Below the pieces are notes generated by a model that worked only from the letters and a program-made list of their open reading frames with translations, did no database searches and was not told where the DNA came from. Shown here piece after piece: positions 6,815 to 31,661 of a DNA stretch of 32,735 nt. This DNA comes from Puniceicoccaceae bacterium (GTDB taxonomy: Bacteria; Verrucomicrobiota; Verrucomicrobiia; Opitutales; Opitutaceae). The stretch lies in NCBI GenBank assembly GCA_007695295.1, contig REEB01000141.1:1-32735 (forward strand), in the 5' to 3' direction. The position numbers were made by a program, and so were the translations under genes. Positions within the stretch are counted from its first letter, which is position 1. Each line of letters opens with the position of its first letter.

Positions 6815-8812
6815 TCAGTCGAAGTAGTCCGGGATGCGGATGCTCTGCATGAACTCCAGCTCCGGGATGCGGAATTGAAGGTCGTCTCCGGAGGATGCAC
6901 CTGGCAGCGTGCGGCCGGCGGGTTCGAGCACGGCCTCGATGGGGCGGCCGTCGGCTCGAATGAGCAGGGGCAGGTCGCGGATGACCGGCATGTACTCCGT
7001 CACCGGATACCAGCCATTGAGAAGCGATTCACGGCCGCTGTGATTGACGAGGTGCACGATTAGTTCCCGCTTCCGGCGCATGGTGACCAGCTCGACTTGG
7101 GCCGGGGTCTCGATCCGGGCGATAGGGCGGGGGAGGAGCCGGTCGATGATTGCCAGTACCTCGGTGGCCACATGGGGGTTGGCGCGGCGGTGGTACTCGC
7201 CGAAGACCGGCATGGCGAGATAGGCAACTTGGCCGCGGCCATGGCTGCGGTGGAGGACGGCGGCAAAGCCGTCGTCGGTGGCCGCGGGCGCGCGACCGTG
7301 GCCGAACTTGGCGCCACCATCGCCGGCTTGAAGCGGCGTGATGAGCTTGACCAGACGGCGGGTGTCGTGGCGAGGACGCACGAGGGCGCAGCGCCCGGCG
7401 GCCGCATGGGGCTCCGGCAGATCTCCGAAGTAGTGATAATCGAGAGGACTGAACGCTTCGAACTCGGCCCCGGCGAGGTCGAGCAGCGCGGGATTGAGAC
7501 CCTCTTCCCCCGCGGATTGCGTAATGAGCAGGCACCCCCCGGCTTCCACGTAATCGGCGATGCGGCGGACCTCCGTTGCTCGAAGATAGTGAACCTCGGG
7601 CAGGATAAGCAGCGGGTAGCGCGGCAAGTCATCCTTGAGGGCTTCGGTGCCAATGGCGGTGTAATGACGTCCTTTGAACTGAAACATCCGCGAGCATCCC
7701 TCGAACGGCGCCGCTCGGCGCTGGCGTTCCGCCGGATCGGGAAAGAACTGCAGCCGGTCACCCATGAGGTGGTCGTGGGATAAAAGAACCGCGATTTCCG
7801 GAACCGGTTTTGTATCCACCACCACGCGACGACGATCCTGCACAAAGGAGAAGACTTGGCCCATGATGTCGAGGGCGCGCTGCTCAAGGGCACCATTGGG
7901 GAGCTGCCGGTCGATCAGCCAAAAACCGCCGCCGTTGGCGATGGTCGCGGCCGCGGTGTACATGAGGCTGGTGGGGAGGTTGTTTTCCCAGTCTCCGAGG
8001 CCGTCGAGAAAACGGCCGCACATGTAGTCGTAGGGGTGGCCGGTGCCGGCAAAAAAACGGGTTAGGGTACTGGCGATCCGGCCGGTCGGAATCAGATCCG
8101 CAATCAAGCGGGTGATGTGCGGTGGCGGCGGGACCGGCCGGCGCGGCCCCCATTCCCAGTTGAAGGCCACCCCGACCCTCGGATCGGCGGCTTGCAGCGC
8201 TTCGGCGGTGCGGGCGAAGAAGTGATCGTAACAACCGCGGTACCAGGCGACATACTCCAGCCAGTGTGGGTCGCGGTCGTTCTCCGGGATGGGTCCGCCG
8301 AATTTTTCGCGGCAATGAACACAATGGCAGGGCTTGAAGCCGGTCATCGTATCCAGCAGCACTTCGTCAACGCGGTGCTTCTGCAGCACTTCCACGGCCT
8401 GGGGGATGAACAGTTCCTCGAGATAGGGGCTGTTGACACAGACGGGGCGGTAGTTGCCGCTGTCGAACCCCGCGTCGACCCTGCGGTCGGAAGCCCGGAT
8501 CTCCCAGTCCGGATGTTTTTCCACCGCGACGGTGTCGAGGAAGACTGAGAAGTAGACCACGATGCCGAGTTCATGGCGGTGGCAGGCTTCCACGATGGCG
8601 GCGAGCATGTTCTGCTTCAGCCCGGGATGGCGGTTGCCGAAGGCGGTGTCGTAGTAGGCGTGGCCGTAGTGGCACTTGGCAAAAAAGGCGAGCAGGTCGA
8701 CCCCGAGGGCGGCGAGTCCCGCGACGTAGCTCTCGGCGTCAAAGCCCTCGCCGACGACCGTATCGGCTGGGATGTGAAAATCCGGATGCAGCTTGCAGAG
8801 GGAGGGTTTCAC
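6815..8812 (-). CDS. GHL6-type glycoside hydrolase with beta-galactosidase trimerisation-like domain
   Basis: The protein has 665 residues starting at GTG 8812, 17 nt after the oxidoreductase stop. The N-terminal half is a TIM barrel of the hypothetical glycosyl hydrolase 6 type. D154 in VLLDTMTGF is followed by the characteristic cysteine cluster at C162, C164 and C167 (CHCVHCREKF), with an F-N-W-E-W-G segment later. From about residue 345 the protein continues with a flavodoxin-like domain similar to the middle (trimerisation) domain of GH42 beta-galactosidases, starting PEIAVLLSHDHLMGD and including YPLLILPEVHYL and VEAGGCLLIT. A small C-terminal beta domain closes it (LIVHLVNHSGRES). No signal peptide is seen, so it probably acts on imported oligosaccharides. 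The specificity of this family is not established. The cysteine cluster may bind metal. Confidence 0.83.
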   Translation of the reverse strand: MKPSLCKLHPDFHIPADTVVGEGFDAESYVAGLAALGVDLLAFFAKCHYGHAYYDTAFGNRHPGLKQNMLAAIVEACHRHELGIVVYFSVFLDTVAVEKHPDWEIRASDRRVDAGFDSGNYRPVCVNSPYLEELFIPQAVEVLQKHRVDEVLLDTMTGFKPCHCVHCREKFGGPIPENDRDPHWLEYVAWYRGCYDHFFARTAEALQAADPRVGVAFNWEWGPRRPVPPPPHITRLIADLIPTGRIASTLTRFFAGTGHPYDYMCGRFLDGLGDWENNLPTSLMYTAAATIANGGGFWLIDRQLPNGALEQRALDIMGQVFSFVQDRRRVVVDTKPVPEIAVLLSHDHLMGDRLQFFPDPAERQRRAAPFEGCSRMFQFKGRHYTAIGTEALKDDLPRYPLLILPEVHYLRATEVRRIADYVEAGGCLLITQSAGEEGLNPALLDLAGAEFEAFSPLDYHYFGDLPEPHAAAGRCALVRPRHDTRRLVKLITPLQAGDGGAKFGHGRAPAATDDGFAAVLHRSHGRGQVAYLAMPVFGEYHRRANPHVATEVLAIIDRLLPRPIARIETPAQVELVTMRRKRELIVHLVNHSGRESLLNGWYPVTEYMPVIRDLPLLIRADGRPIEAVLEPAGRTLPGASSGDDLQFRIPELEFMQSIRIPDYFD

Positions 8813-8829: not shown

Positions 8830-9834
8830 TCAGCCGGCACTAGCGGCCAGCCCATTGCGGATAAGGCGAATGTCGTTGGAAGCTTCATCGAGGGTGGCCA
8901 GATTGCGAGGCCAACGGCCGCCACGGTGGACCGCGGCAAAGCTGTCATAGATGGTTTCGGGAAGCGGCGGACAAGGGATGATCTCATCCACGCCGTGGCG
9001 GGAAGCACGGAGCACAACCTGTCCCTCCCGGTAATCCTTGGTCAGGCGCCAGCCCTGGTCGGTGACAAGGTAAAACAAGTCGATGTGTTCGCGATCATTG
9101 CCCTCGGTAGTATGAACTGCCAGGTCGGCGGCCCAAGTAATAAAGAGGTGGGCCACGCCTCCACCTTCGAAGTGAACCACCATCGACTCGGTGTCGGCGC
9201 ATTTCAGACCGGGATGGGCAAGGCGGTCGGAAAAGAACGTGCTCCGCGCCACCGGCCGCCCCATCAAATGACAGGCGGCATTCAGATTGTGAATCATGGC
9301 ATCCATGAAGGGGCCGCCGTTCTTTTCCGGATCCGTCGCCCAGTCGTTCCACTGCGGATAGGCATGAATCCAATCCTGGCGGTAAAGGGCGAGTCGGCCG
9401 AATCGACCCTCGGTAAAGAGATCCTTGGCCGTTTCCAGAAAGCGGTCTTCCGTACGATTGTAAATCACCCCTGCGGTAATGCCCTTTTCCCGGGCGGCCC
9501 GGCAGATGGCATCGCAGTCCTTGATGTGGGAAGCCAGCGGTTTGGTGGTGATGACCGCCAAATTGGCGGCGATCGCTTGCAGAAAGAGCGCTTTTCGAAC
9601 CCATGGCGGTACGAAGAGAGCGACGGCTTCGATGGATGCATCACTGAAAATAGCGTCTGGATCGGACGCGACGGTGCCGCCGAAAAGCGAAGCGTACTTT
9701 TGTGCACGGGTCTGATCCGGGTCGTATAAGACACGGACTCGAATATCACGGGATTTCTGCAGGGAGGCGGCTTGCCAGCGCAGGAAGTCACCACAGCCGA
9801 GGATGGCGAGGTTGAGAGGTTCGGATGAGTTCAT
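8830..9834 (-). CDS. Gfo/Idh/MocA-family oxidoreductase
   Basis: The protein has 334 residues. The N-terminal Rossmann domain begins NLAILGCGDFLRW, a dinucleotide-binding loop. The family's EKP motif appears as TTKP in AVITTKPLASH. The catalytic segment is DAMIHNLNAACHLMG, whose His matches the conserved active-site His of the family. The C-terminal alpha/beta domain is short but complete. Family members use NAD(P) to oxidise or reduce sugars, inositols or sugar acids in the cytoplasm. It lies 17 nt after the exported glycosidase gene and 17 nt before the GHL6 gene, so it belongs to the same transcript. It probably oxidises a sugar liberated by those hydrolases; the position oxidised cannot be read from sequence. 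Confidence 0.9.
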   Translation of the reverse strand: MNSSEPLNLAILGCGDFLRWQAASLQKSRDIRVRVLYDPDQTRAQKYASLFGGTVASDPDAIFSDASIEAVALFVPPWVRKALFLQAIAANLAVITTKPLASHIKDCDAICRAAREKGITAGVIYNRTEDRFLETAKDLFTEGRFGRLALYRQDWIHAYPQWNDWATDPEKNGGPFMDAMIHNLNAACHLMGRPVARSTFFSDRLAHPGLKCADTESMVVHFEGGGVAHLFITWAADLAVHTTEGNDREHIDLFYLVTDQGWRLTKDYREGQVVLRASRHGVDEIIPCPPLPETIYDSFAAVHRGGRWPRNLATLDEASNDIRLIRNGLAASAG

Positions 9835-12630: not shown

Positions 12631-13659
12631 TCAGGCCGGCAACTTGCCGGGCATGGTTTCGAGAGCCTTCCGCCAAGCCGACAGGTATCCATCCATGGTC
12701 CGGTTGATGCCGGGAACAATGGTCTGCCGGGCGGGATCCGCCTCGAACCAGGCGAGGGTTTGGCGGATGCCGGTGTGGAAGGGGATCCGGGCTGCAAAGC
12801 CGGGCACGAAGTGCTTGATCTTGGAATTGTCAAAAAGAGTGGAGTGCGCTTTGTCTCCGAGCAGGTTGCCTCTTTCCCATTGATTGAGGCGGGCGAGAAA
12901 CTCGCTTGGGATGGGAACCAGTCGGGGCTCGACACCGGCGGCTTCAGCGATGGTGGTGTAGATTTGGCTCCAAGTCAGAACTTCGTCGGAGGTGATGTGA
13001 AAAGCATGTCCGATGGCATTGGTATTGCCAAGCAGTCCGTTGAAACCTCGGGCGAAATCCTCGGCGTGGGTGACGGTCCAGAGAGAGGTGCCGTCGCCAT
13101 GGACGATCATTTCACCGCCGCGCCGGATTCTATCAATAAGGGTGAAGTCATTCCAGCCGCCGATGGCCACCGGCCAGACGGTCTCATAGGTGAGGGAGGG
13201 GCGGACGATGACCGAGGGAAAGTCCTGCTCCCGATAGGCGCGGGTGAAGACGGCTTCGCAGTCGATTTTGTCCCGTGAGTACTGCCAATGGGGATTTTTG
13301 AGCGGGTGAGACTCGGTCACGAAGGGATGGCGGAGCGGCTTCTCATAGACGGAAGCGGAGCTGATGAAAACGAATTGCCCGCACCTGCCGGTGAAGAGGC
13401 GGATGTCCCGCTCCACATCATCCGGCTTGAAGGCGATAAAGTCCGCCACCGCGTCGAAGGTGCGCTGTCCCAAGGCGGCGGAAACTCCGGCCTCGTCCCG
13501 GGCGTCTGCGACCACCGATTCGGCTGCGGCCGGGATGCCGTAATCGAAGAGGGGGCGGTGGCCACGATTGAGGAGCGTCACCTGATGACCTTGGGCGAGG
13601 GCGAGGCGGACACAGGCCGCGCTGATGTTGCCGGTCCCGCCGATAAAGAGCAGCTTCAT
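12631..13659 (-). CDS. NAD-dependent epimerase/dehydratase (extended SDR)
   Basis: The protein has 342 residues. GGTGNIS at residues 7-13 is an extended-SDR variant of the GxxGxxG nucleotide loop. FISSASVY (98-105) supplies the catalytic Ser, and Y127 with K131 (YSRDK) completes the active site. GDGTSLWTVTHAEDFARG is a typical substrate-domain segment of this branch, which includes nucleotide-sugar epimerases and CSP41-like proteins. It is the first gene of the seven-gene minus-strand operon, 49 nt before the exported glycosidase. It starts 94 bp from the divergent AraC regulator. A frame extending to 13716 would run into the divergent promoter and has no better start. Whether it acts on a free sugar or a nucleotide sugar is not clear from the sequence. 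Confidence 0.88.
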   Translation of the reverse strand: MKLLFIGGTGNISAACVRLALAQGHQVTLLNRGHRPLFDYGIPAAAESVVADARDEAGVSAALGQRTFDAVADFIAFKPDDVERDIRLFTGRCGQFVFISSASVYEKPLRHPFVTESHPLKNPHWQYSRDKIDCEAVFTRAYREQDFPSVIVRPSLTYETVWPVAIGGWNDFTLIDRIRRGGEMIVHGDGTSLWTVTHAEDFARGFNGLLGNTNAIGHAFHITSDEVLTWSQIYTTIAEAAGVEPRLVPIPSEFLARLNQWERGNLLGDKAHSTLFDNSKIKHFVPGFAARIPFHTGIRQTLAWFEADPARQTIVPGINRTMDGYLSAWRKALETMPGKLPA

Positions 13660-13753
13660 GGGCGACACGGTATCACACTCAACGAAGAAAATCGTGCTTT
13701 GGATTGATGAAAACATTGCTTCCCTTGATCTGCGGAAGACAGTGGGAGCTGCG
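13660..13753. promoter_or_regulatory. Divergent promoter region between the glycan operon and araC-type gene
   Basis: These 94 bp separate the starts of the seven-gene minus-strand operon and the AraC-type regulator. The region is clearly less GC-rich than the flanking genes. Both promoters, and presumably the AraC-protein sites, should lie here. I could not pick convincing -35/-10 pairs or a clear direct repeat by eye. GGGAG at 13744-13748 is the ribosome binding site for the ATG at 13754. Confidence 0.55.
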
Positions 13754-14581
13754 ATGGCACCGCCGATCCTGCTTCATTTTCGTGACCGTACCATGCAGGG
13801 GGAGTGGTTCCAGCTTTTGCGCGTGGACTCCGGCCGAGTCTCCTTGCCGCGCTATCACCGGCACGATTATGCGGAGATTTTCTGGCTCAACCAAGGCCGC
13901 TGTGCCCACCTCTGCAACGGCCGCACGGAAGCATTGCAGGCGGGATCGCTGCGGCTTCTGCGGCCGGAGGATGCACACCAACTGAGACCATGGCGCGGGG
14001 GTGAAGCCTTTCGCTTCACCAACCTGGCGATCAGTCCCCGGGCTTGGCGCCGCCTCCGCGACCGGTATCCCCTGGAGTGGAAGCGACTCTACGGGCAGCC
14101 CGGAAGCAGGGTGGGGGCGGAATTGACCTCCTCGGAGCTGAATGAATTTGATCGGATGGCCGGTGCCCTGGCCTCCGAAGCGAACACCGCCTTTCATGTT
14201 GAACGCACGGTATTGACCATTTGGAGTCATTTCCTGCGCGGAGGACAGGTGCCGCCTGCCGAAGGGGTTCCGGCCTGGCTCGCCCACGCCTTGCTCGAAG
14301 TGCAGGAGCCGGAGGTTTTGAGCCGGGGTGTTGCCGGGTTGGTGGCAGCTGCGGGGCGCTGCCACGAACATGTCAGCCGGATGTGCCGGCGCTATTTGGG
14401 AAAGACCCCCACCCAGCTGGTGAACGAAGCGCGGCTGCGACAGGCCGCCCACGCTCTCCGCATGAGTTCGGGCTCGGTCTTGGATGTTTGCCTTGCCTGT
14501 GGTTTTGAAAATCCGGCCCAATTTCATCGATTGTTTCGTGCCCGGTTCGGGACCACCCCGGGCCGTTACCGGCGAAGCTGA
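13754..14581 (+). CDS. AraC-family transcriptional regulator
   Basis: The protein has 275 residues from ATG 13754, chosen because GGGAG sits 5 nt upstream; earlier in-frame starts (13625, 13658) fall in or beside the divergent gene. The N-terminal half is a cupin-type sensor domain: RYHRHDYAEIFWLNQG is the usual His-rich strand and LLRPEDAHQL closes the barrel. The C-terminal domain has two helix-turn-helix motifs: RGVAGLVAAAGRCHEHVSR-type first motif and SVLDVCLACGFENPAQFHRL-type second, then the FGTTPGRYRR signature. Such proteins usually activate transcription when a sugar binds the cupin. Its divergent position makes the seven-gene operon the most likely target, with the downstream ThuA/Gfo pair a possible second one. 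Confidence 0.92.
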   Translation: MAPPILLHFRDRTMQGEWFQLLRVDSGRVSLPRYHRHDYAEIFWLNQGRCAHLCNGRTEALQAGSLRLLRPEDAHQLRPWRGGEAFRFTNLAISPRAWRRLRDRYPLEWKRLYGQPGSRVGAELTSSELNEFDRMAGALASEANTAFHVERTVLTIWSHFLRGGQVPPAEGVPAWLAHALLEVQEPEVLSRGVAGLVAAAGRCHEHVSRMCRRYLGKTPTQLVNEARLRQAAHALRMSSGSVLDVCLACGFENPAQFHRLFRARFGTTPGRYRRS

Positions 14582-14679: not shown

Positions 14680-15387
14680 ATGACCAAGCGTATGGTATTC
14701 CACACCGGCGGGCCGTTTCATCCCTCCGCGGCGCAGGCTCGACGGATGGCCGAATTTCTCGGCGGGGACTTCGAAATCGTGACGCGGGACGGGGCGTCGG
14801 TTTTCGAGGAACTGGATCATTGCGATCTCTTTGTCGCCGCCGGACTGCACTGGACTGGCATGGATGGCCTGGTGGACCGGCCGGACTGTTGGCCGGGAGA
14901 GGCGACCCCCATGCGCTACCGATCGCCGAATGAGCGGCAGCGCCGGGCCTTTCGCGAGTTTGTCGCCTCCGGCAAGCCGCTGCTCGGTTTTCATGGCGGC
15001 ATCGCCAGTTACGACGACTGGCCTGAGTATGGCCAGCTCCTCGGGGTGTACTGGGACTGGCGGGTTTCGAACCACGGAGTCCTGCAGGAATGGACGGTGA
15101 CTCCAACCGGGACGGGCCACCCGGTGATCGAAGGCGTGCAGACCTTTGGCCTGCGCGATGAGGTTTACGTGAACCTGCAAATGACACCCGGACTGCCTTA
15201 CGCCGTCCACGCCACCGCCGATTGCCATGGGATGCGGTTTCCCATGGTGGTCACGGCCGAGGGAGGGCGGATCAATGGCGCGGGGCGGATGGCTTACCTC
15301 GCCAACGGACATGACGAAAGCACCTTGGAATGCACCGACTTCCGCACTCTCATCCGAAACACCGTTCATTGGCTTACCGTATCCTGA
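14680..15387 (+). CDS. ThuA-like domain protein
   Basis: The protein has 235 residues of the ThuA (trehalose-utilisation-like, class-I-glutamine-amidotransferase fold) family. The start strand RMVFHTGGPFHP and the nucleophile-elbow equivalent LLGFHGGIASYDDWPEYGQLLG are the clearest signatures; the elbow has His where amidotransferases have Cys. The C-terminal part includes GAGRMAYLANGHDEST, similar to the family's closing GRVFYxxxGH segment. ThuA proteins participate in the conversion of 3-keto sugars and are often next to Gfo/Idh dehydrogenases. Here the oxidoreductase starts 2 nt downstream, so the pair is certainly co-transcribed. No signal peptide is seen. The 98-bp upstream gap carries a strong inverted repeat, so this pair may be regulated apart from the AraC gene. 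Confidence 0.85.
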   Translation: MTKRMVFHTGGPFHPSAAQARRMAEFLGGDFEIVTRDGASVFEELDHCDLFVAAGLHWTGMDGLVDRPDCWPGEATPMRYRSPNERQRRAFREFVASGKPLLGFHGGIASYDDWPEYGQLLGVYWDWRVSNHGVLQEWTVTPTGTGHPVIEGVQTFGLRDEVYVNLQMTPGLPYAVHATADCHGMRFPMVVTAEGGRINGAGRMAYLANGHDESTLECTDFRTLIRNTVHWLTVS

Positions 15388-15389
15388 TC

Positions 15390-16478
15390 ATGACTACAAA
15401 AACGTATCGCTGTGCCGTCATTGGCGTCGGCAAACCCACCCTCACCTGGGCCAAGGGGGGCGGCCACCAGATCGGCTACGCTCATGCCCGCATGGTTCAG
15501 GCGCACCCGCGGCTGGAATTGGTTGCCGGGGCCGACATCGATGCCGGCAACCTTGAGGCCTTCCAGAAAACCTTCGGAGTGGAGCGTGGCTATGCCAACT
15601 ACCGGGAAATGTTGGAAAACGAGAAGCCCGACATCGTCAGCATCTGTACGTATGTGGGGCTGCATGAGCCGATGGCGGTAGCCTGCGCCGAAGCCGGGGT
15701 ACGGGGCCTGTTTCTCGAAAAGCCTGTCGTTCACAGTCCCGCCGCCTTCGACCGCCTTTCGGCGGCAATCGACCGCAGCGGAATGAAAGTATCCGTGGCT
15801 CACATACGGCGCTACATCCCCGCCTTGGCCCGGGTGCGGCGGGAACTGGCCGCGGGCACGATCGGCCGGCCGCTGCTTTTCATGGCGGGCATCGACGGTT
15901 GGGACCTGAGCGAGTGGGGCAGTCACTGGCTGGATGCGTTCCGGTTTTTCAATCAGGACAGGCCGGTTAATTGGGTGATGGCGCAGGGCCGGGTGCGCGA
16001 CCTGCGCGGCTATGGCCATGCCATGGAGGACCATGCGGTGGCCTGCTTCACCTTTGAAAACGGTGCCCGGGGCTTGCTTGACGGCGGCCGGGCGATCGGC
16101 CCGGTGGGCGAGGCGGAGGGCGGACCAGAAGCGCCCACCATGACCATTGTCGGCAGCGCCGGGGTCATTTACCTGCGGCAATGGCTCAAAGTCGTCGATA
16201 TCCATCACGTCGCCGGGCGCACCGCTTTCACGGAACCTGCCGGAGGCGACCGGGGCGAAGCGACTGAGACCACTTGGACGCCGTACTGCGCCGGCCTGGT
16301 GGATTGGCTGGAAGGCGGAGAGGCGCCACCCACCGCGTGGGAGTTCACCCGGGGCAGCGCCGAACTCAATCTCGCTTGTTATCTTTCCATAGTGCGCGGT
16401 GACCGGATCGACCTTCCCTTCGATGATGAAGCCCGGGCGATCGATGAATGGCCCTTGGAAATCCTGGCCCGGCGCTGA
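15390..16478 (+). CDS. Gfo/Idh/MocA-family oxidoreductase (ThuA partner)
   Basis: The protein has 362 residues from ATG 15390, 2 nt after the ThuA stop. The Rossmann start is CAVIGVGKPTLTWAKGGG, with an unusual insertion after the glycine loop. LFLEKPVVHS carries the family's EKP motif, and EWGSHWLDAFRFF carries the catalytic His-x-x-Asp pair. The C-terminal domain includes DHAVACFTFENGARGLLDGG, a standard strand pattern. By family it is an NAD(P)-dependent sugar or sugar-acid dehydrogenase. The ThuA neighbour suggests formation or processing of a keto sugar, for example 3-keto derivatives as in the thuAB system, but this is an analogy. An open frame reaches back to 15330 inside the ThuA gene; the ATG at 15390 is the natural coupled start. 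Confidence 0.9.
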   Translation: MTTKTYRCAVIGVGKPTLTWAKGGGHQIGYAHARMVQAHPRLELVAGADIDAGNLEAFQKTFGVERGYANYREMLENEKPDIVSICTYVGLHEPMAVACAEAGVRGLFLEKPVVHSPAAFDRLSAAIDRSGMKVSVAHIRRYIPALARVRRELAAGTIGRPLLFMAGIDGWDLSEWGSHWLDAFRFFNQDRPVNWVMAQGRVRDLRGYGHAMEDHAVACFTFENGARGLLDGGRAIGPVGEAEGGPEAPTMTIVGSAGVIYLRQWLKVVDIHHVAGRTAFTEPAGGDRGEATETTWTPYCAGLVDWLEGGEAPPTAWEFTRGSAELNLACYLSIVRGDRIDLPFDDEARAIDEWPLEILARR

Positions 16479-19988: not shown

Positions 19989-21461
19989 ATGGCGGCAACT
20001 CCCAATATCCTCATCTTCATGACCGACCAACAGCGGGGTGACAGCGTGTCGCCCGGAAGCGCTGGCAAAGCCGTGACCCTGCGTCTGGATGCCTTCCGGG
20101 AAGAGGCGGTCGCTTTTGATCATGCGTATTGCCCGGCGCCGCACTGCTGCCCGTCGCGGGCCTCCTTTTTCACCGGCTTGTATCCAAGCGAGCACGGCGT
20201 GTGGAACAACGTCTGCGTTCAGAACGCGCTTTCCACCGGACCGCGGGCGGCCGTGCGGCAGTGGAGCGAGGTCTTCGCGGCGGCGGGCTACGATCTCAGC
20301 TTCTGTGGGAAATGGCATGTCAGCCGCGAGCAGGGGCCGGCGGATTTCGGCTGGCGGGAAGGCATGGTGACGGCCGGCACACGCGCCCATGGCCAAGGCG
20401 TGATGGGGCCGACGTGGGAGAGCTATGCGAACCTTGTTGAAGAGGACCGGCCGCGCAGGGAGGGGGAGATTTCGAGGCCTGGCTACGGTTCGACGACGCT
20501 ATACGGCGTCCATCAGCAACCCTTCAACGATGTCACTGTGGTCGAGGCCGGGATCGAGTGCCTCAGTGCCGCGGCAAAAAACGGCAAACCATGGCTGCAT
20601 TTTATTGGAACGCTCGGGCCGCACGATCCTTATCAGGCTCCGCAATGGGCGCTGGACTGCTATGATCCCGTTGCCATCGAGCTGCCCTCCAGTTTTGGCG
20701 ATGCGATGGAGGACAAGCCGGGGCTTTACCGTCGCATGCGGGAGCGCTTCGCGACCCTGGCCCCGGAGGAGCATCGGGCCGCCCTCCATCATTATCTTGC
20801 GGCCTGCACCTACCAAGACCACCTCTTCGGTCGGCTGCTCGATGCCTTGGAGGAAACCGGTCAGCGGGAAAACACCCTCGTGCTCTACTGCTCGGACCAC
20901 GGCGACTATGCCGGCGAACACGGCCTTTGGGCCAAAGGCTTGCCGGCCTTCGAGAGCTGTTACCATGTGCCCGCGCTGGTGCGCTGGCCGGCGGGCCTGA
21001 AGGCGCCGGGGCGGACGGTCGCCGACTTTGTCGATTTGGTGGATTTCGGTCCGACCTTCCTCGAAGCGGCCGGACTGGAGATTCCGGAGGCGCTCTCGGG
21101 GCGGAGCCTGCAACCCTTTCTGCGGGGCGAGCGACCGGAGGACTGGCGGACGGCGCACTGCCGCCAGACCAATGGCAATGAGCTTTACGGCATCCAGCGC
21201 TCGATCCGCACCGCCGAGTGGAAATATGTCTTCAACGGCTTCGATTTCGACGAGCTCTACCACCTCGAGGACGATCCGGGTGAAACCCGAAACCTCGCCC
21301 GCGATCCCGCCCATCGCGGCACGGTGGAAGCCCTCTGCGCGGAGATGTGGCGCTTCGCCCGCGATCATGGCGATGCCTGTATCAACAACTACATTACAGT
21401 GGCGTTGGCCCCTGTCGGCCCGGGGGCGGCCTTTCGTCAGGCCGGCGATGGGCCCAGTTGA
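19989..21461 (+). CDS. S1-family sulfatase (formylglycine type)
   Basis: The protein has 490 residues. The start PNILIFMTDQQRGD holds the first metal Asp (D13). The sulfatase signature is CCPSRASFFTGLYPSEHG: the C-x-P-S-R motif puts the residue converted to formylglycine at C53. FCGKWHVS supplies the conserved Lys/His, and YCSDHGDYAGEHG the later Asp-His metal pair. The C-terminal part (ELYHLEDDPGETRNLA) is typical of the family. Such enzymes remove sulfate esters from sugars and need a formylglycine-generating enzyme encoded elsewhere. No signal peptide is visible at this start, so it may act on imported sulfated oligosaccharides in the cytoplasm, or use an unrecognised export route. Its 3' end overlaps the convergent UroD-like gene by 25 bp. 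The specificity is unknown. Confidence 0.93.
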   Translation: MAATPNILIFMTDQQRGDSVSPGSAGKAVTLRLDAFREEAVAFDHAYCPAPHCCPSRASFFTGLYPSEHGVWNNVCVQNALSTGPRAAVRQWSEVFAAAGYDLSFCGKWHVSREQGPADFGWREGMVTAGTRAHGQGVMGPTWESYANLVEEDRPRREGEISRPGYGSTTLYGVHQQPFNDVTVVEAGIECLSAAAKNGKPWLHFIGTLGPHDPYQAPQWALDCYDPVAIELPSSFGDAMEDKPGLYRRMRERFATLAPEEHRAALHHYLAACTYQDHLFGRLLDALEETGQRENTLVLYCSDHGDYAGEHGLWAKGLPAFESCYHVPALVRWPAGLKAPGRTVADFVDLVDFGPTFLEAAGLEIPEALSGRSLQPFLRGERPEDWRTAHCRQTNGNELYGIQRSIRTAEWKYVFNGFDFDELYHLEDDPGETRNLARDPAHRGTVEALCAEMWRFARDHGDACINNYITVALAPVGPGAAFRQAGDGPS

Positions 21462-22579: not shown

Positions 22580-22678
22580 CCGCCTCCCCGTTCGGGGCGG
22601 GTTGCGCCAGAAATGAGTCGGGCTGACCGGGATAAGCTTGGTCCTGCGGACGGAACGTGGTTTTCTCCTGCCATCCCC

Positions 22679-23923
22679 ATGACCTCAAAACCAACCACCA
22701 TCGCCATCATTGGCGCCGGCGGGCGGGGCAGCAGCTTCGCCTCCCTGATCGAAAACCTGCCCCACCTCGGCACCGTTGTCGCCGTCGCGGAGCCGCGGGC
22801 CGCCTATCGGGAGCGCCTGGCGAAGCAGTTTTCACTGCCACCGGAGCGGGTCTTCGAGCGGTGGCAGGACTTTGTTGCGGAGGGCAAGCTCTGTGATGCG
22901 GTGGTCATCGCGACCATGGATCAGGATCACGTTGGTCCCGCGGTCGCCTGCACGGAGCTGGGCTGCCACATGTTGCTGGAGAAGCCGATGGCGGTGGCGC
23001 TGGAGGATTGCCGGGTCATTGCCGAGGCGCAGCGCAAGGCGGGGACGATCACCGCGGTCTGCCACTCGATGCGGTACCACAAAGGTTTCGCCAAGCTCAA
23101 GGAAGTGGTGGACTCCGGGCGGCTGGGCCGGATCGTCACCGTGGACCAGCTTGAGCAGGTGGCCTGGTGGCACCAGGCCCACAGCTTCGTGCGTGGCAAC
23201 TGGGGCAACGAAGCCCGCTCGACCTTCATGCTCTTGGCCAAAAGCTGCCACGACATCGACTACCTTGCCCATCTCATTGGGACGCCCTGCCAGCGGGTGG
23301 GGTCATTTGGAGCGCTCACGTATTTCCGCCCTGAATACGCACCGGAGGGCAGCACGGAGCGCTGCGTGGACTGCCCGGTGGAGCCCGACTGCGCCTACTC
23401 CGCGCTCCGGCACTATGTTTATACCAACCGCGAGGGCTGGCCGGCGGCGGTGGTGTCTCCGGATCACAGCCTTGAGGCGCATCTCAAGGCCGTGACCGAA
23501 GGCCCCTACGGACGGTGTGTCTGGAAGACCGACAACGACGTCGTCGACCACCAGGTGGTGATGATGGAATTCGAGGGCGATGTGACCGTGACCTTCACCA
23601 TGACCGCGTTTACCCAGCATGGTGGCCGGCGCGTGCGGGTGCACGGGACCCTGGGCGAGGCGCATTTCGAGGAGAGGAAAATCGAAGTCAGGGACTTCGC
23701 CAGCGGCAACACCGAGACCATCACGATCGGCCCCGAGCCGGGTGGCCACGGCGGCGGGGACCGCCGCGTCCTGCTGAGCTGGCTGAACGCGATCGCTTCC
23801 CGGGATGCCTCCCTCGTTCGCACCGATGTGCAGGAATCCTACCACACCCACCGGATCGTCTTCGCGGCCGAGCGGGCGCGGCGCGAGGGGCGGCTCATCG
23901 TACTGGACGAGTTTGAGGCCTGA
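22679..23923 (+). CDS. Gfo/Idh/MocA-family oxidoreductase with cysteine motif
   Basis: The protein has 414 residues from ATG 22679. The Rossmann loop is IAIIGAGGRGSSFAS. MLLEKPMAVALEDC carries the EKP motif, and LLAKSCHDIDYLAHLIG the catalytic His and Asp. An insertion at about residue 240 holds C-x2-C-x5-C (ERCVDCPVEPDCAYSA), a feature of one branch of this family, possibly a structural metal or disulfide site. The C-terminal half ends with GGHGGGDRRVLLSWLNAIAS, also typical of that branch. The ATG 22679 was chosen over 22613 because it starts just before the Rossmann strand. The upstream divergent region carries a perfect inverted repeat. The last codons lie inside the first copy of the 28-bp direct repeat. 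It probably oxidises a sugar or sugar acid. Confidence 0.92.
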   Translation: MTSKPTTIAIIGAGGRGSSFASLIENLPHLGTVVAVAEPRAAYRERLAKQFSLPPERVFERWQDFVAEGKLCDAVVIATMDQDHVGPAVACTELGCHMLLEKPMAVALEDCRVIAEAQRKAGTITAVCHSMRYHKGFAKLKEVVDSGRLGRIVTVDQLEQVAWWHQAHSFVRGNWGNEARSTFMLLAKSCHDIDYLAHLIGTPCQRVGSFGALTYFRPEYAPEGSTERCVDCPVEPDCAYSALRHYVYTNREGWPAAVVSPDHSLEAHLKAVTEGPYGRCVWKTDNDVVDHQVVMMEFEGDVTVTFTMTAFTQHGGRRVRVHGTLGEAHFEERKIEVRDFASGNTETITIGPEPGGHGGGDRRVLLSWLNAIASRDASLVRTDVQESYHTHRIVFAAERARREGRLIVLDEFEA

Positions 23924-24025: not shown

Positions 24026-25900
24026 ATGAAATTATCCATCTTCTGCGATGAGCTTGGCTTGGACGTACGCCAGGCGCTGCCTGAGATCCGGTCATGGGGT
24101 TACGACTACATCGATCTGCGCGCCCTCCTGTTTGGCAAGGCCTTCGAGCAGCTTTCCCCGGAGGAGATGAGCGAGCTGAAAACGTTGCTCGACCGGCACA
24201 GCCTGAAGGTCGCTGTGCTGCAGTCTTCGCTGGCCAAGGTCCACCTCCCCGACCGCGAGCGGCAGCAGCAGGAGGCGCAGAAGCTGGAGGCGATCATTCG
24301 CGCCGCCGACATCTTCGGGTGCCGCATCGTGCGCTCCTTTCATTACTGGCAGCCCGGCAAGGGCGAGCTGCGCGGGGAGTTGACCCGCCGTCCCGACGAA
24401 CTCCAGCGCGTCCTCGACAGCTACCGGCCTTTGGCGGAACGCGCCCGGCAGGCCGGCCTGGTCATCGGCTTCGAGAACTGCGGGGTTGAACCGGATGAGG
24501 TCTTCGCCGTGCTCGACGCGCTCAACGTGCCGGGCTGGGGGCTCGCTTGGGATCCCTACAATACTTGGTCAGGCGACGAACGCCGCCGAGACGAAAATGC
24601 CTATATTCGCCGGATGCTGGCGCGGGCGAATCTCATCCACGTGAAGGCCGAGGGGGCCGTGCCGGAGATGCAGAGCGAACTGATTCCCTACGAGAAAATC
24701 GTGGCCGCCGGTCACGCGGTGGGGACGATTCACGCCATCAGTGTGGAAACGCACGCGCGGCAGGACAAGGTGGCGATCTCGCGCAAAGTCACCGAGCGCC
24801 TCCGTCGGGCCTGGCCCTCTGCCGCCCCCGGCTCGCTCGATGAAGCACTGGCCGCCCCCGTGACGGTGAAACGACCCTGGGCCAGGGACCCCGCCCGCTT
24901 TGTCGTGGTTGGGTTAGGCATGGGGCGCAACCGCTCGCGCATGATCAAGTCCACCTCGGGATGCCGATTGCTGGGAGTGTGCGATCTCGTCCCCGGGCGC
25001 GCGGAGGAAGCCGCCAAGGATTTGGAGGTTCCGTGGGAGACGGACGTTACCAAGTGGCTCGAACGCGACGAGGTGGAGGTCGTGTTTGTGGTCACCGAGA
25101 CGGGCAACCACGCGCAGGTGGCGATCCAGGCGCTGGATGCGGGCAAGCACGTGATTTCCACCAAACCCATGGAAGCCAACTTGGCCGCGGCGGATACCAT
25201 GGTGGCCGCGGCTCGTCGCAACGGTCGCCTGCTCGCGGTCGATTTCGAGGCCCGTTTCCGGCCGGAGGCCGTCTCCCTCAAGGATGCGGTCGTGAGCGGC
25301 GCTTTGGGTCGCCCGCTCTTCGTGAACGCCTCCCTCACGATTCGGCGCACCGCAAAGTATTTTGCCGAGAACGGCGGTTGGCGCGGGACCCGGCGGCTCG
25401 ACGGCGGCGGCGTGCTCTCCAACCAGGCCGTCCATCTCATCGACGAGCTGGCCTTCGTTTTCGGCCTCCCGCAGCGGGTGCGGGCCATCGCGCGGACCCA
25501 AGTGCATGCGATCGAAGGGGAGGACCTCGGGGTCGCGATCTGGGAATACGACCACGGTCTGGTGGTGAATCTCTCCGCCAGTTCGACCTTTCCCCAGAAC
25601 ACCTGGTATCCGCGGATCGAGGTGCATGGCGAAGAGGGGGCTTACGCCCGCTTCTCCGGTGGCCAGCATGCGAAGCTCAACACCCAATGGTTTTTGCAGG
25701 GGAAGTGGACCGACCTCCCGCCCACCGACGCGAAACCGCGCTGGCTGAACTCCGTGGACAACATGGCCGCCGCCCTGCGCGACCAAGCTCCTCTCATCGC
25801 CTCCGGTGACGACGGGCGGGCGACCCAGGCTATTCTCGAAGCCATGTACATCTCCGCCCTTCAGCGCGACGGCGGTTGGGCCGGCGTCGATAGCAGATGA
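24026..25900 (+). CDS. Fusion: TIM-barrel sugar isomerase/epimerase + Gfo/Idh/MocA oxidoreductase
   Basis: The protein has 624 residues with two complete domains in one uninterrupted frame. Residues 1 to about 265 are a xylose-isomerase-like/AP-endonuclease-2 TIM barrel (start MKLSIFCDELGLDVRQALPE). Its metal ligands are recognisable in GFENCG (Glu), LAWDPYNTW (Asp), NLIHVKAEG (His) and SVETHA (Glu). After a linker of about 25 residues, RFVVVGLGMGRNRSRM from residue 291 begins a full Gfo/Idh/MocA enzyme. HVISTKPMEA is the EKP-motif equivalent, and GGGVLSNQAVHLIDELAF holds the catalytic His and Asp. These two families are often separate neighbours in inositol and sugar catabolism. Fusion would let the product of isomerisation or epimerisation be oxidised, or the reverse. 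No internal stop or weak joint suggests an assembly artefact. It lies 102 bp after the Gfo/Idh gene. Confidence 0.93.
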   Translation: MKLSIFCDELGLDVRQALPEIRSWGYDYIDLRALLFGKAFEQLSPEEMSELKTLLDRHSLKVAVLQSSLAKVHLPDRERQQQEAQKLEAIIRAADIFGCRIVRSFHYWQPGKGELRGELTRRPDELQRVLDSYRPLAERARQAGLVIGFENCGVEPDEVFAVLDALNVPGWGLAWDPYNTWSGDERRRDENAYIRRMLARANLIHVKAEGAVPEMQSELIPYEKIVAAGHAVGTIHAISVETHARQDKVAISRKVTERLRRAWPSAAPGSLDEALAAPVTVKRPWARDPARFVVVGLGMGRNRSRMIKSTSGCRLLGVCDLVPGRAEEAAKDLEVPWETDVTKWLERDEVEVVFVVTETGNHAQVAIQALDAGKHVISTKPMEANLAAADTMVAAARRNGRLLAVDFEARFRPEAVSLKDAVVSGALGRPLFVNASLTIRRTAKYFAENGGWRGTRRLDGGGVLSNQAVHLIDELAFVFGLPQRVRAIARTQVHAIEGEDLGVAIWEYDHGLVVNLSASSTFPQNTWYPRIEVHGEEGAYARFSGGQHAKLNTQWFLQGKWTDLPPTDAKPRWLNSVDNMAAALRDQAPLIASGDDGRATQAILEAMYISALQRDGGWAGVDSR

Positions 25901-25936: not shown

Positions 25937-25953
25937 CGCTAGTGAACCAATTC

Positions 25954-27588
25954 ATGCAAAGTCCCCCAAGTCCCAATATCGTGATGGTGATGGCCGATGA
26001 TGTCACACCGGCCTACCATGGCTGCTATGGCGGCCCGACTCCGACGCCCCACATCGACCGGCTGTCCCGCGAGGGCATCCGCTTCAATTGCGCCCACGCC
26101 GTGGCTCCCTTGTGCAACCCAAGCCGATATTCGGTTTTTACCGGATGTTACCCCGGTCGGGCCGCGGCGGCCTCGGAGGGGTGCACGCCGGAGGAGCCCT
26201 ACTCCATTACGCAAAACGCCGATCTGTTTCCCGAAACGCCCACCCTGGCCAAGCACCTTCGGGCTGCGGGGTATTTCACCGGGCATGTGGGCAAATGGCA
26301 CAGCAATTTCTCCGCGGCGGGCGATCAGGAATGGTCGCGGGATCTTGGTCGGGACGCGGACCTCGATGATCCCGAAGTGGACGCACTTTTGCGGAAGCGC
26401 CAGGAGATCCATCAGGATGTGGTGAGACGCTGTGCGGGATTTGAGTGGGTGGGAGCTGTCAATTGGGGAAATCTCATGGGGGATCGCCCGCGGCGCCTCC
26501 GGCATCACAATCCGGCATGGATGACCGATGCCGCACTCGGGTTTCTCGATGCGGCGCGGGAGTCGGAGCGACCATTTTACCTCCACCTCGCCAACACCGT
26601 CCCGCACGGCCCCGACCCAGACCGCTCGCTGGGCGCCGACCACCGTTACACCTTTTCCGGTCGCCAGGAGAACGCGCCCGCGTCTCACCCGCACGACAGC
26701 ACCGTCTTCGAGCGCCTGCGTGCGGCGGGCCTCCAGAACTCCGGCCCGATCGCAGGGATCAACGCCGGAATGATCCAGATCGATGATCAAATCGGTGCCC
26801 TCATTTCCGCTCTGGAAGCCCGGGGCGAACTGGACAATACCCTGTTTCTTTACACGGCCGACCATGGCATTCACGGCAAAGGCACCTGTTACCTCGGTGG
26901 CTACCACATGCCATTGGTCATGCGTTTGCCCGGAGTGATTAAGCCAGGCCGGGTGAGCGATGAGCCGGTCTCGCATGTGGACCTCATGCCGACGCTCTGT
27001 GAACTGGCCGGGGCACCCGTACCGCAGGATGCGCTTTGCGATGGGCTGAGCTACCTTTCCCTGCTGCGGGGGCAGGCTGGCTCGCCCCGGAGTTTCACCT
27101 ACCAGGAGATGGGGGTGGGGCGGGCCGTGACCCAGGGTGCCTGGCGCTACATCGACTTTCACTACCCCCGATCAGTCATTGCACGGATGGAATTCGGAGA
27201 ACTTGACATTCCGCCCAGCCTGCAGGCTTACACCGAAGGACCATTTTGCGATTACAATTTTATCAACAAGCCCCACTACTTCGATCCCTGCCAGCTTTAC
27301 TGCCTGGACGACGATCCTTTCGAGCGACACAACCGTGCACATGATCCCGCATGCGCGGAGATTCTCGGCCAGATGCGCGAGCTACTGCGTTCGGTCACGC
27401 GCACTTTGCCGGGTCCTTACGCCCACGACGTGCCTGCGTTCATGCGTTCGCTGAAATACAGACGCATGGTCGAGAAACGCCGCCTCCAGGTCAGCCGAAA
27501 ATCCTTTTATCCATCCGGCTTCGATCAGGAAAAGATCTTCAACCTGAACCTGCCTGATCCGCTGCAAATGGACGCCGCAATCGGCTAG
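25954..27588 (+). CDS. S1-family sulfatase (formylglycine type), second copy
   Basis: The protein has 544 residues from ATG 25954 (548 from GTG 25942). PNIVMVMADDVTPAYHGCYGG carries the double-Asp metal site (D15, D16). APLCNPSRYSVFTG holds the C-x-P-S-R motif, with the formylglycine cysteine at about C54. HVGKWHSN supplies the Lys and His, and YTADHGIHGKG the later Asp-His. The C-terminus has DPCQLYCLDDDPFERHNRA, a family signature near the end. No export signal is visible, as in sulfatase 1. The two sulfatases differ widely, so they are not recent duplicates and may attack different sulfate positions. The GTG lies in a CTAGTG word beside the inverted repeat. It probably shares a transcript with the fusion gene, with a 53-bp gap. 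Confidence 0.92.
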   Translation: MQSPPSPNIVMVMADDVTPAYHGCYGGPTPTPHIDRLSREGIRFNCAHAVAPLCNPSRYSVFTGCYPGRAAAASEGCTPEEPYSITQNADLFPETPTLAKHLRAAGYFTGHVGKWHSNFSAAGDQEWSRDLGRDADLDDPEVDALLRKRQEIHQDVVRRCAGFEWVGAVNWGNLMGDRPRRLRHHNPAWMTDAALGFLDAARESERPFYLHLANTVPHGPDPDRSLGADHRYTFSGRQENAPASHPHDSTVFERLRAAGLQNSGPIAGINAGMIQIDDQIGALISALEARGELDNTLFLYTADHGIHGKGTCYLGGYHMPLVMRLPGVIKPGRVSDEPVSHVDLMPTLCELAGAPVPQDALCDGLSYLSLLRGQAGSPRSFTYQEMGVGRAVTQGAWRYIDFHYPRSVIARMEFGELDIPPSLQAYTEGPFCDYNFINKPHYFDPCQLYCLDDDPFERHNRAHDPACAEILGQMRELLRSVTRTLPGPYAHDVPAFMRSLKYRRMVEKRRLQVSRKSFYPSGFDQEKIFNLNLPDPLQMDAAIG

Positions 27589-31583: not shown

Positions 31584-31661
31584 TGGCGTCCCCTAGGGGA
31601 TTCGAACCCCTGTTCTCACCGTGAAAGGGTGGTGTCCTGGACCGGGCTAGACGAAGGGGAC
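31584..31661 (-). tRNA. tRNA-Glu (anticodon UUC)
   Basis: The minus strand reads GTCCCCTTCGTCTAG... to ...AGGGGACGCCA, nearly the standard bacterial tRNA-Glu. The acceptor stem GTCCCCT/AGGGGAC is perfect, the T-arm is AGGGG-TTCGAAT-CCCCT, and the anticodon loop is CTTTCAC, with TTC at 31625-31623. The encoded CCA is included in the coordinates. One C-A mismatch lies at the top of the anticodon stem. It has its own promoter and terminator. Confidence 0.97.

Follow-up and report, generated by a model that had tools for sequence, protein, structure and literature searches.

The locus described here raises the question of whether a single polypeptide holds two complete enzymes and, if so, what they do together. 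On contig REEB01000141.1 of a Puniceicoccaceae bacterium (the window, meaning the whole stretch of 32,735 nucleotides analyzed), a forward-strand gene runs from an ATG at 24026 to a stop at 25900 and encodes 624 residues, with no internal stop in the ORF reading. The N-terminal part (residues 1-265; 24026..24820, +) is a xylose-isomerase-like TIM barrel by Pfam, alignment, invariance and fold, and PF01261 (AP_endonuc_2) covers its residues 20-260 (E 1e-21; 78 bits for a cut-off of 31). A linker (residues 266-290; 24821..24895, +) leads to a Gfo/Idh/MocA dehydrogenase. This half is composed of a Rossmann NAD(P)-binding domain (residues 291-407; 24896..25246, +) with the glycine loop and K380-P381, matched by PF01408 (GFO_IDH_MocA; E 2e-21), and of a C-terminal alpha/beta domain (residues 418-613; 25277..25864, +) with N466-Q467-x-x-H470, matched by PF22725 (E 7e-24) and PF02894 (E 3e-18). 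All Pfam calls exceed the curated cut-offs. Together with the Glu, Asp, His and Glu ligands of the barrel, and with the KP motif and catalytic His of the second half, they place the two halves in the AP_endonuc_2/xylose isomerase-like superfamily and the Gfo/Idh/MocA family.

The junction is not a random join, since a conserved AWPxAAxG motif marks the start of the linker, with P264, A266, A267 and G269 invariant in a 13-sequence alignment. AlphaFold2, given the family alignment, modeled the whole chain with a mean pLDDT of 93.6 and a pTM of 0.85, falling to pLDDT 75-79 around residues 261-280. As the best 50 structure matches of the whole model concerned the dehydrogenase half only, we also folded the barrel alone (pLDDT 94.1). 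The initial annotation knew of no characterized enzyme with this architecture, and this holds within the PDB and NCBIfam libraries that we searched: no NCBIfam model spans both halves, and no PDB chain matched both among the best 60 of 74, the best 60 of 99 or the best 50 matches. A literature search, limited and partly obscured by unrelated matches, found no account of a barrel-Gfo/Idh fusion. One fold match of the barrel, 5hmq, has an AP_endonuc_2-type barrel fused N-terminally to a 4-hydroxyphenylpyruvate dioxygenase-like domain, and thus differs in partner domain and chemistry.

We then looked for the fusion in other genomes. While a query of GTDB genome contigs with the single protein returned no relatives, an alignment-based profile search yielded 46 loci (hereafter L-numbers), of which 44 are intact single-frame fusions of 611-643 aa. 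These span at least nine phyla (Lentisphaerota, Planctomycetota, Verrucomicrobiota, Kiritimatiellota, Armatimonadota, Chloroflexota, Poribacteria, Spirochaetota and Bacillota) and include the complete genomes of Planctomycetes bacterium syqfu (CP087563) and Blautia parvula (NZ_CP084061); B. parvula and Oligosphaera ethanolica are cultured species that carry the gene. Among 387 genomes of the window's phylum, the N-terminal half was found in 12 others at 44-53% identity, always within a long frame; these frames encode proteins of 624-634 aa that align end to end, and some are the same genes as among the 46 GTDB loci. The two unfused exceptions (L085:146-3509 and L086:855-3007) come from PVC-group bins and encode, in this order, a Gfo/Idh protein of another subfamily, a stand-alone barrel 47% identical to the window's N-terminal half, and a sulfatase (an ORF and a sulfatase-like frame in L085, a sulfatase-like frame match in L086).

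An assembly or annotation artifact joining two neighboring genes could be imagined from the draft status of the contig, from the separate genes of L085 and L086, and from a Paenibacillus cellulosilyticus plasmid match (99% query cover) that had the appearance of a distant fusion and proved to be a similar pair of ORFs 15 bp apart. We consider it extremely improbable and reject it: the 44 intact frames come from independent assemblies, complete genomes among them, and the linker motif is conserved. The initial annotation had named a stop or frameshift at residues 265-290, or halves always encoded separately in relatives, as grounds against a fusion; the junction is open, and the same 44 relatives read straight through it as fused genes. 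The barrel and dehydrogenase are therefore confirmed as a real single-chain protein, neither a chance nor an assembly join.

The window gene itself stands somewhat apart. Its terminal branch in the tree is long (0.7), and no sister is well supported. A whole-protein search of 57 relatives (36 of the same family) returned C-half matches only, and among 286 genomes searched of the window's class, no other genome had a close N-terminal half, and two gave distant matches only. The long branch and the absence from close relatives suggest that the gene was gained by transfer, or lost widely elsewhere.

Both active sites are preserved across the family, as judged from an alignment of 44 sequences (43 fusions plus the window protein; L078 was omitted for its alternative start). 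In the dehydrogenase half, the glycine loop G296-x-G298-x-G300, K380-P381 (25163-25168, +) and N466, Q467 and H470 of the N466-Q467-x-x-H470 motif (25421-25435, +) are invariant in 44/44. The glycine loop, KP motif and catalytic His listed by the initial annotation are thus present, but not its catalytic Asp in the canonical place: the canonical Asp before the catalytic His is replaced by the invariant Asn N466, with D473 downstream. The nearest folds are WlbA (Z 40.4), levoglucosan dehydrogenase (38.2) and glucuronide 3-dehydrogenase (37.4), and several of the nearest sugar dehydrogenases act at C3. WlbA, a UDP-GlcNAcA 3-dehydrogenase, is the best match in both structure and sequence (26% identity), although it acts on a nucleotide sugar and has no barrel. 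The D-glucoside 3-dehydrogenase YcjS, of the same superfamily, matches this half with 101 bits. The best NCBIfam match is TIGR04380 (IolG); at 88 bits for an equivalog cut-off of 355, we rejected an assignment as inositol 2-dehydrogenase.

In the barrel, alignment with D-tagatose 3-epimerase supported the Glu, Asp, His and Glu ligands proposed in the initial annotation: E150 (24473-24475, +), D176 (24551-24553, +), H205 (24638-24640, +) and E241 (24746-24748, +) align with the metal and catalytic residues of that enzyme, which we take to be E152, D185, H211 and E246, and are invariant in 44/44. So are K71, H73, W108, Q109, N151, C152, K207 and H243. Two complete active sites are therefore carried by one chain and are invariant family-wide, as the initial annotation had expected of two complete enzymes, and as the Pfam domains also support.

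C152 is informative because it occupies the position of the catalytic His of eliminases. Lyases of this barrel fold are marked by a published signature: a His is essential in the eliminases AtOGE and PuCGE (H134 and H143, respectively), and AtOGE loses its activity when H134, which follows the beta5 ligand H132 by two residues, is mutated (PMC10628242). The fused family has E-N-C(-G) at this signature, without exception, and so lacks the His of AtOGE and CGE/DgpB-C; membership in the eliminase family was rejected on these grounds. The dehydratase AsbF has E-T-H there, while the epimerases and isomerases compared here likewise have no His at this position (YcjR LEPL, IolI LEFV, UlaE MEIM, D-tagatose 3-epimerase LEAV). 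The barrel is nevertheless no ketose 3-epimerase by family: the match is limited to E 1e-4, and the E-x-x-N-R motif is missing, as is the E-x-x-N common to ketose 3-epimerases and YcjR. YcjR scored 0.5 bits against the N-half profile, no significant similarity, and membership in its family by sequence was rejected as well. The nearest folds of the barrel model (all Z 20-22) are AtHYD, UlaE, D-tagatose/ketose 3-epimerases, IolI, IolE, AsbF and YcjR, and the C-glycoside eliminase DgpB-C is also among the matches. AtHYD (8ro4) is the top match at Z 22.1 but is tied with several others and shares 12% identity in the structural alignment, so the modeled fold does not by itself choose among these enzymes.

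We next examined the genes around the fusion. In the window, a stand-alone Gfo/Idh/MocA gene (22613..23923, +; Pfam) ends 102 bp upstream, and the two genes probably form one operon. Sulfatases (PF00884) with the C-x-P-S-R formylglycine motif lie on the same strand 41 bp downstream (25942..27588, +) and further upstream (19989..21461, +). The source genome is rich in keto-sugar and sulfated-glycan enzymes, with 36 AP_endonuc_2 and 23 sulfatase-domain matches in 4.6 Mb; by a rough count, this number of sulfatases makes two within about 4 kb unlikely to be chance. The sulfatase setting from which the initial annotation derived a dedicated step in desulfated-sugar metabolism is thus real locally but does not extend to the family: sulfatase-like frames were found in the flanks, many of them short, of only 5/46 relatives (L042, which is the closest relative, L043, L054, L085 and L086), and other settings occur elsewhere. 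We therefore rejected such a specialization as a family trait.

Elsewhere in the window, an AraC regulator gene (13625-14581) adjoins a ThuA-domain gene (14680-15387, +) that overlaps a Gfo/Idh gene (15330-16478, +), an arrangement that recalls ThuA/ThuB of disaccharide 3-oxidation. On the opposite strand, a Gfo/Idh gene (8830-9834, -) lies just upstream of a gene for a protein with a GHL6 domain and a GH42-type trimerization domain (6815-8812, -), and a tRNA gene is found at 31587-31661 (-; Rfam RF00005, 54 bits).

In other lineages, an AraC-type regulator is found near the fused gene in many loci. Blautia and another Lachnospiraceae member have an ABC sugar transporter upstream and a Gfo/Idh gene downstream, and stand-alone barrels are found nearby in Spirochaetes and L065. 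In two Spirochaete operons (L062:11857-13703 and L073:2019-5819), the fused gene is followed by a separate barrel with the E-T-H signature that resembles AsbF, and then by a GH130-family gene; the L073 operon continues with an inositol monophosphatase family protein and an aldo/keto reductase.

What might the two active sites do together? That one chain would catalyze two consecutive steps, as the initial annotation proposed, is plausible from gene order: ycjR precedes ycjS in E. coli, the same barrel-first order as in the fused protein, and the two Paenibacillus ORFs are arranged likewise. The reading that we favor, to which we give close to an even chance, is a conserved bifunctional enzyme combining a sugar dehydrogenase with a keto-sugar epimerase or isomerase, in the manner of YcjS and YcjR or of IolG and IolI. 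The C-terminal half would use NAD(P)+ to oxidize a secondary hydroxyl, most likely at C3, of a sugar, glycoside or cyclitol that probably depends on the lineage. The metal-dependent barrel would then move a proton on the carbon beside the new carbonyl, epimerizing or isomerizing the intermediate via an enediolate, and the same dehydrogenase, or a neighboring one, may then reduce the product again. Overall, an otherwise unreactive position would be inverted or isomerized, as achieved by E. coli YcjS and YcjR with separate proteins, and having both halves in one chain would hold the labile keto intermediate close by. This likeness to YcjS and YcjR is a resemblance in working, not membership. YcjR (3-keto-D-glucoside 4-epimerase; 6wn6) shares the superfamily, the Glu-Asp-His-Glu set and the lack of a His at ligand +2 with the fused barrel, and their folds are alike (Z 20.1) despite the lack of significant sequence similarity. 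Conservation of the ligand set with both Glu residues speaks for an epimerase or isomerase, as do E-N-C throughout the family and the separate E-T-H barrel in the Spirochaete operons. The fold matches also agree with this reading, with C3-acting sugar dehydrogenases near the C-terminal half and with 3-epimerases, UlaE, IolI and YcjR near the barrel, although AtHYD is tied with these. Against this, the barrel sequence is near no epimerase, with a score close to zero for YcjR and the weak D-tagatose 3-epimerase match, and the invariant K71, H73, W108, Q109, K207 and H243 could serve another chemistry.

Two other readings, both of which we judge unlikely and to the same degree, draw on glycoside breakdown. 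In one, the dehydrogenase would make a 3-keto-glycoside, and beta-elimination by the barrel would then break its glycosidic bond or expel water, on the pattern of DgpA with DgpB/C, LgdA with LgdB1, or IolG with IolE. The same two superfamilies are known as neighboring-step partners (PMC7676230, PMC10628242): in the levoglucosan pathway and with the C-/O-glycoside eliminases, a Gfo/Idh 3-dehydrogenase or 3-keto-sugar reductase works with a TIM-barrel lyase or hydratase. Fold comparisons point the same way: levoglucosan dehydrogenase and glucuronide 3-dehydrogenase resemble the dehydrogenase half, and the barrel's matches include DgpB-C and IolE. H73 or H243 could also take the role of the catalytic His. 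However, the His required in AtOGE and PuCGE is the invariant Cys152 in 44/44, which disfavors oxidation with elimination, and a second, dehydratase-like barrel with E-x-H is encoded separately in the Spirochaete operons, where elimination would not have to fall to the fused barrel. In the other reading, the barrel would hydrate a 2-hydroxy-3-keto-glycal and the dehydrogenase would then yield the free sugar by reducing the 3-keto-sugar; in the non-hydrolytic glycoside pathway, these are the two final steps (LgdB2 with LgdC; AtHYD with a Gfo reductase). These steps are consecutive in known pathways (PMC7676230, PMC10628242), the position of AtHYD at the top of the fold matches is in keeping with them, and the first steps could fall to another Gfo/Idh gene (window 22613-23923, L081, L082 and L064) or to the separate E-x-H barrel (L062 and L073). 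Yet the barrel's identity to AtHYD is low, and no locus was shown to hold all four steps. LgdA/LgdB1/LgdB2/LgdC, DgpA with DgpB/C, AtOGE and AtHYD are separate proteins, unlike the fused family.

That the protein is a true inositol-catabolic fusion, in which IolG-IolE or IolG-IolI would act on myo-inositol, appears quite improbable. This reading would agree with IolG as the best NCBIfam match and with the inositol monophosphatase family gene in the L073 operon, but the match falls far below its cut-off, inositol enzymes do not stand out among the fold matches, and no iolB-, iolC- or iolD-type gene was recognized in a partial survey of neighboring genes.

A further link emerged in anaerobes, from eight loci (L061, L068, L070, L071, L072, L074, L077 and L083) in which the fused gene is directly followed by genes for a radical-SAM activase and an uncharacterized glycyl radical enzyme (L068:11897-14990 and L083:11872-15043); the reading frame is broken in L077 and some others are clipped by contig ends. 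In the longer loci, an unannotated protein of 252-268 aa and a mannose-6-phosphate-isomerase-like cupin protein come next. The glycyl radical enzyme (∼740 aa) has the Gly loop RVTGF and the Cys loop GCHW, whose Cys corresponds in alignment to the catalytic one of choline TMA-lyase. It lacks the +2 Glu of that enzyme (GCVE), having Cys-His-Trp where dehydratases and lyases have Cys-x-Glu, and it scored far under the cut-off of every NCBIfam equivalog. Across the 387 genomes of the window's phylum, this enzyme family occurs in 8/13 genomes with the fused gene and 14/374 without (Fisher p 3e-8), and a close subgroup in 5/13 and 1/374, respectively (p 1e-7), values that are inflated by genome relatedness. 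Even so, two clades that lie far apart in the tree of fused proteins, Lentisphaeria and Oscillospiraceae, both show the pairing. B. parvula has the fused gene with no glycyl radical enzyme nearby. YbiW and PflD are glycyl radical enzymes acting on 1,5-anhydrohexitol 6-phosphates (PMC12441222), which makes a sugar-derived substrate plausible here as well. Somewhat more speculatively than for the epimerase or isomerase reading, we propose that the fused enzyme may act early in an undescribed anaerobic pathway for sugars or cyclitols, with a new glycyl radical class at a later step that lineages like that of the window do without.

Altogether, the fused family is widespread, conserved and apparently uncharacterized. 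It is undescribed within the libraries searched, while its halves are otherwise known as separate keto-sugar partners, and both they and their partnership are known in kind. One such protein could reveal a coupled oxidation and rearrangement step. The glycyl radical operon is the most interesting lead from the family, as it offers a handle on an anaerobic carbohydrate pathway of gut and sediment bacteria, including Oligosphaera ethanolica.
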